Below are positions 6,250-28,440 of a stretch of 64,000 nt of DNA, piece after piece (the stretch's first letter is position 1; every line of letters begins with the position of its first letter). A program made the translations under genes and the position numbers. The stretch comes from Cloacibacillus evryensis DSM 19522. Its GTDB lineage: Bacteria; Synergistota; Synergistia; Synergistales; Synergistaceae. The stretch covers positions 2,161,283 to 2,225,282 of the forward strand of contig NZ_KK073872.1 in assembly GCF_000585335.1 (NCBI RefSeq). The letters are read 5' to 3'. The notes under the pieces are model-generated. The model worked only from the letters and a program-made list of their open reading frames with translations, made no database searches and was not told the DNA's origin.

Positions 6250-6957
6250 TCAGCGTATGTCCGCGATCTTTTGCAGCTCCGCGAGCCGTTCCGCCGAGCA
6301 TTCGGGATAGTCCTTCAGCGGAAAATCTATCCCCAGACGTTCGTACTTTACGGCGCAGAGCCTTTTGAAGGGCAGCAGCTCGATCCTTTCCAGGTTGGCG
6401 AAGCGGCGCGCCGCCTCTCTGAGGCGCGGTATGTCGGCCTCGCCGTCGTTTATTCCCGGCACGATCACCTGCCGTATCCACAGCGGTATCCTCATCGCCT
6501 CCGTCAGAGCGAGAAATTCAAGCACCGGCGCGAGCGAGCCTCCGCAGTATTTAAAGTAGCCCTCTTCCGTTGTAAATTTAAGGTCGCAGATCACGAGGTC
6601 CGTATATCTCAACACCGCCTCCGCGCCGCGCGTTCCGCAGGCGCCCGAGCTGTCGAGCGCCGTGTGATAGCCTCGCTCCTTGAGCTCATGGAAGAGCGCC
6701 GCCGCGAACTCGGGCTGCATGAGCGGTTCGCCGCCCGAGAGCGTGACGCCGCCCTTTTCGGCAATATAGGGGCGCAGCCGCTCGATCCTAGCCGTCAGCC
6801 AGGAGACGGAACGTTCCTCGCCGCCCGCCGCCTCCCAGCTCTCAGGATTGTGGCAATAGGCGCAGCGCAGCGGGCAGCCCTGCGCGAAGATCACGCAGCG
6901 CAGGCCGGGACCGTCGACCGCTCCCAGGCTTTGAAAAGCGCAGATGCGCCCCTTCAC
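6250..6957 (-). CDS. pflA: Pyruvate formate-lyase-activating enzyme
   Basis: A 235-residue radical SAM enzyme that installs the glycyl radical on PflB under anaerobic conditions. The 4Fe-4S site is CxxxCxxC at Cys28, Cys32 and Cys35 (GCPLRCAYCHNPE), preceded by the family motif SLGAVDGPGLRCVIF. The SAM-binding GGE motif is TLSGGEPLMQPEF. The gene begins one base after the pflB stop (pflB ends at 6959), so the two are translationally linked and under the ZTP riboswitch upstream of pflB. Length is typical. Confidence 0.96.
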   Translation of the reverse strand: MKGRICAFQSLGAVDGPGLRCVIFAQGCPLRCAYCHNPESWEAAGGEERSVSWLTARIERLRPYIAEKGGVTLSGGEPLMQPEFAAALFHELKERGYHTALDSSGACGTRGAEAVLRYTDLVICDLKFTTEEGYFKYCGGSLAPVLEFLALTEAMRIPLWIRQVIVPGINDGEADIPRLREAARRFANLERIELLPFKRLCAVKYERLGIDFPLKDYPECSAERLAELQKIADIR

Positions 6958-6958
6958 G

Positions 6959-9190
6959 CTACATCACGCCGTGGAAGGTCCGCGAGACGACTTCCCTCTG
7001 CTGCGCGCGTGAGAGTTTGTGGAAGTTCACGGCGTAGCCCGAAACGCGGATCGTAAGGTTGGGATACTTCTCGGGGCATTCCATCGCCTCCCGCAGCGTC
7101 TCGCGATTCAGCACGTTGACGTTGAGGTGGTGCGCCCCCTGCGCGAAATAGCCGTCGAGCAGGGAGACCAGGTTGCCCAGCCGCTCATCACGCGAATGGC
7201 CGAGTGCCTCGGGAATGATCGAGAAGGTGTTTGAGATGCCGTCGCGGCAGGCGGCGTATGAGAGCTTGGCCACCGAGTTCAGCGAAGCGAGCGCGCCGTT
7301 CTTCTCGCGGTTGTGCATCGGGTTCGCGCCGGGAGCGAAGGGCTCCCCCGCCTTGCGCCCATCGGGCGTCGAGCCGGTCTTTTTGCCGTAGACGACGTTC
7401 GAGGTGATTGTCAGTATCGAAAGAGTGTGCTCCGCGCCGCGGTAGGCGGGATGTTTTTTCAGCTCATTAAAAAAGAGCTCTATCTGTTCGCGCGCGATAT
7501 CGTCCACGCGGTCGTCGTCGTTGCCGAAGGCCGGATAATCGCCCTCGGTGACAAAGTCGGTGATCAGCCCCGCCGCACTGCGCACCGCGCGCACCTTTGC
7601 GTATTTTATCGCCGAGAGCGAATCGGCGAGCACGGAGAGCCCAGCCGCGCCGAAGGCCATGTAACGGTGAACGTCGGTATCGTGCAGAGCCATCTGCGTC
7701 TTCTCATAGGCGTACTTGTCGTGCATATAGTGGATCATGTTCATTGCCGAGACATAGGTCTTAGCCAGCCACGGGCGGTAGATATCCATCAGCGCCAGCA
7801 CCCTGTCGTATTCCAGCATTTCGCCGCCGTAAGGCACGTGCGCCGGCCCCACCTGCTCGCCGCTCTTCTCGTCGCGTCCCCCGTTGAGGCTCATCAGCAT
7901 CAGCTTCACGAGGTTCGCGCGTGCGCCGAAGAACTGCATCTCCTTGCCGACGCGCATCGCCGAGACACAGCAGGCGATCGCGTAATCGTCGCCGTAGAGC
8001 GGACGCATAAGGTCGTCGTTTTCGTACTGGATCGCGTCCGTATCGCAGGATAGCTTCGCCGCGAAGCGCTTGAAGCCCTCCGGCAGCCTCTTCGACCAGA
8101 GCACCGTAAGGTTCGGCTCCGCGGAGGGGCCTAGGTTATAGAGCGTGTTTAACATGCGGTAAGAGCTCTTCGTAACGAGCGTGCGTGCGTCCTCGCCCAT
8201 GCCTCCGAGCGCCTCCGTGATCCACATCGGATCGCCCGCGAAAAGCTCATTATACTCCGGCGTGCGCAGGTGGCGCGCCATGCGCAGTTTCATCACGAAG
8301 TCGTCGATTATCTCCTGCGCGCCGCTCTCGTCAAGCAGCCCGCGCGCGATATCACGTTCAAAATAGATATCGAGGAAGGTCGAGACGCGGCCGATGGACA
8401 TCGCCGCGCCGTTCTGCTCCTTGATCGCGCCGAGATAGGCGAAATAGAGCCACTGCACCGCCTCGCGCGCGTCCGCCGCCGGGCGTGAGATGTCGTATCC
8501 GTAGAGCGCCGCCATCTCCTTGAGCTTGCCGAGAAAGTTTATCTGCTGATATATCTCCTCCAGCAGGCGGATATTATCCTGCAGCATCACATCCGAGGCC
8601 GCGGCGCGCGACTTGTCCTTTTTCTTTTCTTCAATAAGGCGGTCCACTCCATAGAGCGCGGCGCGGCGATAATCGCCGATGATGCGCCCGCGCCCGTAGG
8701 AGTCCGGCAGCCCCGTGATGATGCCGCAGTGGCGCGCCGTCTTGATCTCGTCGGAATAGACGCGGAATACGCCGTCGTTATGAGTCGTGCGGTATTGAAA
8801 TTCTGTCTCCACCTTGTCGGAGAGGGAATAGCCGTAGGACTCGCAGGCCTTGCGCGTCATCGCGATGCCGCCGAAGGGGTTCACGCCGCGCCGCAGCGGC
8901 CTGTCCGTCTGTAGGCCGACGATGATCTCACGTTCTTTATCCAGATAGCCGGCGCGGTAATTCGTCAGCGAAGTCACCGTCTGCGTATCGATATCGAGCA
9001 CGCCGCCGAACTGCCGCTCGAGGTTGAAAAGATGTTCCAGTTTCTTCATCAGCGCCCCCGTGCGCTCCGTCGGGCCGCAGAGAAAATCTCCGCCGCCCTC
9101 GTAAGGCCGGTAATTGCTCTGGATAAACCCCCTCACATCGACGCCTTCACACCATTCGCCCTCTTTGAAGCCCTGCCATTCTTCCCTCAT
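6959..9190 (-). CDS. pflB: Pyruvate formate-lyase (formate C-acetyltransferase)
   Basis: A 743-residue glycyl radical enzyme converting pyruvate and CoA to acetyl-CoA and formate. The adjacent active-site cysteines are in [20 protein letters not shown] in the middle of the chain, and the radical glycine is in the C-terminal [13 protein letters not shown] motif. ATG at 9190 is chosen over the upstream ATG at 9253 because GGGAGGAAAG lies directly upstream and the N-terminus (EEWQGFKEG) matches PflB proteins. It is preceded by a ZTP riboswitch, so the formate made here probably feeds 10-formyl-tetrahydrofolate for purine synthesis as well as redox balance. Confidence 0.97.
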
Positions 9191-9254
9191 ATAGCTTTCC
9201 TCCCGTTCATAATAAAAACATCCCTCTCCCGCGCCCTTTTTCATACAAAACATG

Positions 9255-9401: not shown

Positions 9402-9578
9402 CCTTTTTTCGACGGAACGATCAAGAACTCTTTATCCATTTACGTATTTTCACGCAACTTTTCCCACTTTTTTCCCGTTGCCTGAAGCGCGGCACACTTT
9501 AAACTGAACGAAGAGGGGCGATAGCCTCTTTTAACTTGCGCCGCGCGTCGCGGTCGCGGAAGCGGAGGCGGTAATATT

Positions 9579-10922
9579 ATGAAGGTAGTGATCATCGGAG
9601 GGGTGGCGGGAGGGGCCACCGCCGCCGCGCGTATCGGCACGCTGTCGAAAGATACGCGGGTGGTGATGTTTGAGAAGGGGCCCCATATTTCACTGGGCAC
9701 CTGAGGACTGCCCTATTTCATCGGTGATGAGATAACGGACGCATCCTCGCTCACCCCCTACACACCAGAGGAATTCAAAGAAAGGTATGGCGCCGAGGTA
9801 CGCGTGGAGAGCCGCGTCACGGCGATCGAAAGGGACAGAAAGCTCGTAACGGTCGAGTCCCGCGGGAAACGATATACTGAGAGCTACGACAAGCTGTTGA
9901 TAGCCACCGGCGCGGAGCCTTACCGCGCGCCCTTCCCGGGGGCGGCTCTGCCGGGAGTATTCACGCTGAGAAGTCTCGGCGACGCCGAGGCGATAAAGAG
10001 CTGGATAAAAGAACGCAATGTCAAAAAAGCGGCTGTCATCGGCGGCGGCTATATCGGAATAGAGTGCGCCGAGAACCTCAAAAAGAGAGGGATCGACACC
10101 TTCATCGTCGAGATGGGCGGCAGGCTGATGACTCCCTTTGACCCGGAGGTGGCGGCGCGCATCCAGCGCCACATCGAGGAAAACGGCGTCGGCGTACAGG
10201 TCGGCTGTCAGGTCAGGAATATCGACGATGCCGGCGGCCTCGCGGTACAGACGTGCCCCGAAAGACGCGCCGCCGACATGGTGATACTCGCGGCGGGAGT
10301 GCGCCCCGACACCGGGCTGGCGCAGGCCGCGGGACTTGAGATGAATAAAAAGGGCTCAATTGTAACGGACGCCGGCATGCGCACCTCCGACCCTGACATT
10401 TACGCCGTCGGCGACGCGGTCCAGGTGACAAATTTTGTGACCGGAGAACCCGATTTCGTGCCGCTCGCGGGCCCGGCAGGCAGGCAGGGGCGCATTGCGG
10501 CGGAAAATATCCTCGGAGCCGGCAGCCGTTACGACGGCGCGCAGGGAAGCGGCATCCTCAGGGTATTCGGACTGACGGCGGCCTGCACCGGCATAAACGA
10601 GGAAAGGGCGCGCCGCCGCAAGATAGACTGCGGCAGCGTGGATCTCGAATATCCCTCGCACGCGGGTTATTATCCCGGCGCGGAAGAGATATTTATGAAA
10701 GCAGTATTCGAAAAAGGCACGGGAAAGATACTCGGAGCGCAGTTCACCGGCAGGGACGGCGTCGATAAGCGCTGCGACGTAATGGCGGCCGCCATACGCA
10801 TGGGCGCGACCGCCAGCGACCTGACGCGTTTCGAGCTCTGTTACGCTCCGCCCTTCGGCACGCCGAAGGATATAGTGAACGTCGCCGGCGACCTGATAGA
10901 AAAAAAGCTCGGCGCAGAGTGA
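9579..10922 (+). CDS. Probable selenoprotein: FAD-dependent CoA-disulfide reductase / NADH oxidase family (TGA codon 42 = Sec)
   Basis: The frame from ATG 9579 to the stop at 10920-10922 contains one internal TGA at 9702-9704, codon 42. The N-terminal FAD motif is MKVVIIGGVAGGATAAARIG, then FEKGPHISLGT-U-GLPYFIGDEI. In this family the residue at the TGA is the redox-active cysteine (SFANCGLPY; Cys42 in NADH peroxidase). After it come the NAD motif AVIGGGYIGIECAENL, the second FAD motif IYAVGDA and the dimer-interface tail ELCYAPPFGTPKDIVN. Total 447 residues, normal length. A SECIS-like hairpin follows the TGA. GGAGG lies about 10 bases before the ATG. The likely role is CoA-disulfide, peroxide or persulfide reduction; a sequencing error or pseudogene is the alternative. 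Confidence 0.85.
9702..9738 (+). promoter_or_regulatory. SECIS-like hairpin for UGA recoding
   Basis: TGA at 9702-9704 is followed by ATTTCAT (9715-9721) pairing with ATGAGAT (9727-9733, one G-U), extended by T9714-A9734 and, after a bulge, CC/GG. The 5-base loop CGGTG presents a GGU as bacterial SelB-binding loops do, 17 bases after the TGA to the loop, inside the usual spacing. Confidence 0.75.
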
Positions 10923-27651: not shown

Positions 27652-28440
27652 TCAGAGGGACGAGCGGCTTATCGCCTCCATAACGCCGCCCGCGATCGAG
27701 AGGGATTTATCCGATATTGTAAAACAGTAATCTACCACGCCGCGGGGGTCTACGTCGCCGATCTTCATATCGTGATGGCATTCCACGGACGGATGTATGA
27801 GGCCACGGATAACTCCGGAGATGTTCGCCGCCACCGGATGTCCCGCGATCGCGCCGACAGCCTCCCCCGCTTCGACGAGGTCGCCGATGTTCTTATATGG
27901 GACCAGCCGTCCGGCCGCCGGCGCGCGAAGCAGGCGCTCGATGCCGTAGCCCATGATCACGCCTGGTTTTCTTGTGTCTGGAATAGCCAAGCCCTTCGTG
28001 ATGACACGCCCGAGGCTGTGGCCGCGCATCGTTTCTATAACGTAAAGAGCGTCCTCGGGCGCGCTGAAACCAGGTCCGAGGGCTATCGTCACCGGGGCCA
28101 TATCCCTCGTCGTTCCCGTGTTGCGCTTCGCCATGATCGCGTCGATCAATATGCGCGGGCGCACTTCAGCGAGCGACTTACAGTCCGGGTCTATCAGGAC
28201 GCAGACCGCGCCGGGATCAAATTCCGCGGGAGAGGAGATCAGGCGGCACTCCATATCCTCAACGGTCCAGCGTCCCGCGTAGACGGCCTCGCACGCGGAG
28301 ACGGCGCGGCGCACGGCGAGCGGGCGTCCAGTTTCGAGAACGAGCACGGGAAAGCCGGCCTGGCGGAGCCTGTATATCGTCCCGGTCGCGAGATCGCCGC
28401 CGCCTCTTATAATAATGGGTCTGTTTTTATCTGTTTTCAT
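27652..28440 (-). CDS. yqeB: YqeB-type protein for selenium-dependent molybdenum hydroxylases (EF2563 family)
   Basis: A 262-residue protein starting with a dinucleotide-binding turn (IIIRGGGDLATGTIYRLRQAGFPVLVLE). Family marks: MAKRNTGTTRDMAPVTIALGPGFSAPEDALYVIETMRGHSLGRVI, then PGVIMGYGIERLLRAP and the late barrel-sandwich-like GDLVEAGEAVGAIAG. The family is found with xanthine dehydrogenase-type hydroxylases and with selD and is predicted to handle labile selenium or the molybdenum cofactor. No hydroxylase gene is beside it here. Its ATG lies 5 bases after the mutS2 stop. It supports selenium use in this genome. Confidence 0.85.
   Translation of the reverse strand: MKTDKNRPIIIRGGGDLATGTIYRLRQAGFPVLVLETGRPLAVRRAVSACEAVYAGRWTVEDMECRLISSPAEFDPGAVCVLIDPDCKSLAEVRPRILIDAIMAKRNTGTTRDMAPVTIALGPGFSAPEDALYVIETMRGHSLGRVITKGLAIPDTRKPGVIMGYGIERLLRAPAAGRLVPYKNIGDLVEAGEAVGAIAGHPVAANISGVIRGLIHPSVECHHDMKIGDVDPRGVVDYCFTISDKSLSIAGGVMEAISRSSL

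Follow-up and report, generated by a model that had tools for sequence, protein, structure and literature searches.

A predicted selenocysteine form of a CoA-disulfide/persulfide reductase-like flavoprotein in Cloacibacillus evryensis

A reading frame in a 64-kb stretch of the Cloacibacillus evryensis DSM 19522 genome (the window) carries an in-frame TGA where related flavoenzymes have their redox-active cysteine. This raises the question of whether the codon is a true stop, a sequencing error or a site of selenocysteine (Sec) insertion, and which reaction the product would catalyse. Sec forms of this enzyme family are known. A Sec-containing "NADH oxidase" was listed in 2006 for Geobacter metallireducens (PMC1794560) and in 2008 in marine GOS data (PMC2398784), and the Sec form has since been catalogued as a CoA-disulfide reductase with the motif UGxP (PMC9312934, PMC13188914). 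Because the Sec form has been on record since 2006, the gene described here is a further example of it and not a discovery. Synergistota are described as rich in selenoproteins (PMC9312934, PMC13188914), and 18 known selenoprotein genes have been counted for Cloacibacillus porcorum CL-84 (PMC12013277). The chemistry of a cysteine-containing relative has been described in E. faecalis, where the catalytic C42 of CoA-persulfide reductase contacts the flavin and attacks CoASSH, the resulting mixed disulfide is reduced by the flavin, and the rhodanese cysteine C508 provides the persulfide (PMC9405070).

A reading frame with UGA at codon 42

When TGA is read as U, the frame is open from its ATG to a terminal TGA and specifies 447 residues including Sec, with codon 42 as the sole internal TGA (Table 1). 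The sequence-only reading had claimed a frame unbroken except at this codon, and the translation bears it out. Under translation table 11 the same region yields a GTG-started fragment from position 9804 in place of the full gene, and annotation by the standard code shortens or overlooks it. The claim that the TGA falls on the redox-active cysteine of the family also held, since residue 42 stands opposite the Cys of SFANCGLPY in 3ntd in the alignment of structure homologues; the equivalent position is Ser in structure entry 3nt6.

Table 1. Features of the Sec gene and its surroundings (positions in the window).
Feature	Position	Strand	Basis
Gene for Sec-containing FAD/NAD(P)H-dependent CoA-disulfide/persulfide reductase-like protein (predicted)	9579..10922	+	open frame, Pfam, NCBIfam
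UGA read as selenocysteine (predicted), residue 42, catalytic position (SLGT-U-GLPY)	9702..9704	+	alignment with homologues
Putative bSECIS apical hairpin UAUUUCAUC-GGU-GAUGAGAUA, 9 bp	9714..9734	+	folding and comparison of three TGA genes
Shine-Dalgarno GGAGG, 10 nt 5' of ATG	9564..9568	+	read from sequence
Candidate promoter TTGCCT-16-TAAACT	9478..9505	+	read from three upstream sequences
ZTP (pfl-motif) riboswitch, Rfam RF01750	9275-9357	-	49.6 bits vs gathering 39
yqeB, selenium-dependent molybdenum hydroxylase maturation	27670-28416	-	TIGR03309

A protein match was found in 163 of the 183 genomes of the order. Among the matches listed, a stop lies within the match in three genomes only, and each time it is TGA: those of C. 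evryensis, a second species of the genus (87% identity) and a member of another genus of the family (58%). The TGA is codon 42 in all three genes, and Cys occupies this position in all the other homologues aligned, as expected where a selenoprotein gene has cysteine-containing homologues. The proposed inspection of the residue opposite the TGA thus returned Cys in all homologues examined except the two that themselves contain TGA. In the homologue tree the three TGA genes group together as a single clade (support 100/100).

Decoding machinery and a SECIS-type hairpin

Absence of selA, selB or selC had been named among the observations that would refute Sec. The host genome, a single contig of 3.49 Mb that contains the window, has selA, selB, a tRNA-Sec (UCA) and selD, the set of genes expected alongside a selenoprotein gene. 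The tRNA-Sec scores 76 bits and is given the anticodon TCA by ARAGORN, selA adjoins selB, and selD has one in-frame TGA of its own. The yqeB gene that had been reported elsewhere in the window was recovered (Table 1); the host genome has three more yqeB loci, one of them in two pieces (genome coordinates 1053442-1054193). A Cys paralogue with 38% identity lies at genome coordinates 1243050-1244342, about 4 kb from selB-selA.

Downstream of the TGA, positions 9714-9722 pair with 9726-9734 around a GGU loop (9723-9725), and the distance from UGA to loop is 18 nt. The hairpin had been described earlier as bacterial SECIS-like in form and spacing with a GGU in its loop, which stands; the stem, however, is 9 bp and not 8, and the spacing 18 nt and not 17. 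Both other TGA genes have UAUUUCAUC-GGC-GAUGAAAUA at the same distance from UGA. Published constraints on bSECIS elements are a loop of 3-9 nt, a stem of 4-16 bp, a G in the first two loop positions, a distance of 16-37 nt from UGA and an MFE <= -7.5, and the host hairpin lies within them (9 bp, GGU, 18 nt, -8.5 to -9.9 kcal/mol). Its folding energy is unexceptional (z -0.6 to -1.2), and about 8-9% of synonymous recodings form a hairpin of at least 8 bp. Since these single-sequence folding statistics are not significant, the argument for a SECIS element relies on comparison among homologues. A comparable hairpin is found in all three TGA genes, as against one of the 32 Cys homologues checked, in which it is weak (-5.4 kcal/mol). 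Across homologues the hairpin separates Sec from Cys genes, and its occurrence together with the TGA in three genomes is strong comparative evidence. Two-sided compensatory changes in the stem were not seen among the three TGA sequences. Conservation of synonymous codons in the SECIS region is high only between the second species and the other genus (11 of 13 codons); it is not clear for the host gene.

Enzyme family, proposed reaction and rival readings

The 447-residue protein matches the Pfam domains PF07992 (Pyr_redox_2), PF00070 and PF02852 (Pyr_redox_dim), which cover the Rossmann domains for FAD and NAD(P)H and the dimerisation domain of CoA-disulfide/persulfide reductases. Its SFxxCGLPY motif contains a single catalytic residue, with Sec predicted in place of Cys. 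The best NCBIfam model, TIGR03385 (CoA-disulfide reductase), scores 442.6 bits, below its cut-off of 578.8, and we therefore label the protein CoADR-like and not a proven CoADR. The NADH oxidase model NF046103 gives 263.6 bits against a cut-off of 600, and among the matches listed the protein does not reach the curated cut-off of any named CoADR or NOX model. Solved relatives align over residues 2-437, the closest being the 3ntd/3nta group, which we take to be Npsr, the NADH-dependent persulfide reductase of Shewanella, together with 3icr (CoADR-rhodanese) and 8a56 (CoA-persulfide reductase). The persulfide and CoADR-rhodanese structures reach 391 and 380 bits, compared with 176-206 bits for 1nhr, 2bc0 and 2cdu, which are structures of NADH peroxidase (1nhr) and NADH oxidase (2bc0) type. 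Of the earlier name, "CoA-disulfide reductase / NADH oxidase", the first half is thus retained at the level of the family, and the second is doubtful on account of this difference in score.

The catalytic position is matched in 3icr, 8a56 and 3ntd, but these enzymes have Cys and a C-terminal rhodanese domain, whereas the host protein has the predicted Sec and ends at residue 447. A rhodanese domain gave no match in its sequence, which sets it apart from CoADR-rhodanese and Npsr enzymes. Among the matches listed, the frames of the nearest Cys relatives extend to about 550 residues or beyond, and the one relative examined for it has a rhodanese domain. The CoA-disulfide reductase of Staphylococcus aureus (1yqz) likewise has a single redox residue, no rhodanese domain and a similar length; it differs in having Cys, and the similarity is lower (246 bits). 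The Sec-containing FAD-dependent oxidoreductase listed for Geobacter metallireducens (reference protein WP_011365774.1) belongs to the same family (TIGR03385) and has Sec at the same position (UGxP), but comes from another phylum. To the known Sec forms the host gene would add a lineage from Synergistota that lacks the rhodanese domain of a near Cys relative. Knowledge of Sec decoding is unchanged by it. The interest lies in a conserved exchange of Sec for Cys in the active site of flavoenzymes whose family has been studied in depth, and the Cys sister enzymes allow direct comparison.

We consider it very probable, from the combined sequence comparisons, that Sec is inserted at residue 42 of a working member of the CoA-disulfide/persulfide reductase family; that the substrate is of the CoA type is probable, with appreciably less confidence. 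SelB and Sec-tRNA-Sec would bind the hairpin and place Sec at residue 42 of a homodimeric FAD enzyme, the single redox-active Cys of which is replaced. NAD(P)H would reduce FAD, and the flavin in turn would reduce the oxidised Sec. The selenolate could then attack CoA-S-S-CoA, CoA-S-SH or a related disulfide with release of a thiol (or H2S), leaving a Sec-S-CoA intermediate to be reduced by the flavin. Given Sec at residue 42 and the missing rhodanese domain, the protein most likely uses NAD(P)H for the direct reduction of CoA disulfide, or of CoA persulfide that comes from another source. Sec in place of a Cys nucleophile would, by textbook reasoning, lower the pKa and speed turnover.

Two other readings bear on whether Sec is inserted at all and on what the enzyme would act. 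In the first, the TGA is a true stop, or else an error of sequencing, and the gene is a Cys gene that is decaying or intact. A standard translation would halt at the TGA or begin at GTG 9804, and the modest energy of the hairpin agrees with this. The same TGA, however, occurs in three separately assembled genomes, the frame contains no further stop, and the sequence 3' of the TGA is under purifying selection. In the comparison of the host with the second species of the genus, the part before the TGA has a dN of 0.070 and a dS of 0.773, and the part after it a dN of 0.074 and a dS of 0.836, so that selection is equally strong on either side (dN/dS of about 0.09). These values rule out a pseudogene, and a sequencing error is untenable in view of them; we regard a stop or error as extremely improbable. 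A less remote alternative, though still an unlikely one, accepts Sec and changes the substrate, making the protein a peroxidase, an NADH oxidase or a reductase of some other low-molecular-weight disulfide or polysulfide. Sec enzymes are frequently peroxidases, the scores lie under the curated CoADR and NOX cut-offs alike, and the rhodanese domain is missing, unlike in the near Cys relative. NADH peroxidases and oxidases, however, have a catalytic His where the host protein has VAGGA (residues 9-13), and no such His is found near residue 10; the tyrosine motifs HAxYY and YAPP of the CoADR type are present, and 3ntd and 3icr are far closer than 1nhr and 2bc0.

Within the preferred reading of Sec insertion in a CoADR-like enzyme, three further cysteines draw attention. 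Cys351 is shared by all three Sec genes and occurs in none of the Cys homologues examined, and Cys399 and Cys421 are invariant in the Sec clade and occur also in close Cys relatives. It is conceivable, if improbable, that the rhodanese-free Synergistaceae Sec clade is independent of the Geobacter Sec form, and that Cys351, with Cys399 and Cys421, might resolve Sec42 in a new catalytic cycle, as a peroxidase or persulfide reductase.

Upstream signals and neighbouring genes

The upstream regions of all three TGA genes share CGGAGGCGGT. The candidate promoter of Table 1 is too weak for a consensus promoter scan; the other two TGA genes are preceded by the same arrangement, and a promoter function is possible. 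A GC-rich hairpin just 5' of the Shine-Dalgarno sequence (9510-9570, +) is weaker in the host and strong in the other two TGA genes, and may possibly serve in translational control.

The pflB-pflA pair and an HflK-like gene adjoin the Sec gene in the host and are also nearby in the second species. No pflB-pflA or HflK-like matches were found beside the Sec gene of the other genus; a functional link with these neighbours was therefore rejected, and no pathway is claimed. The ZTP riboswitch is directly upstream of the genes for pyruvate formate-lyase (6959-9253) and its activase (6250-6957), and a strong promoter match lies near it at 9401-9373 (-).
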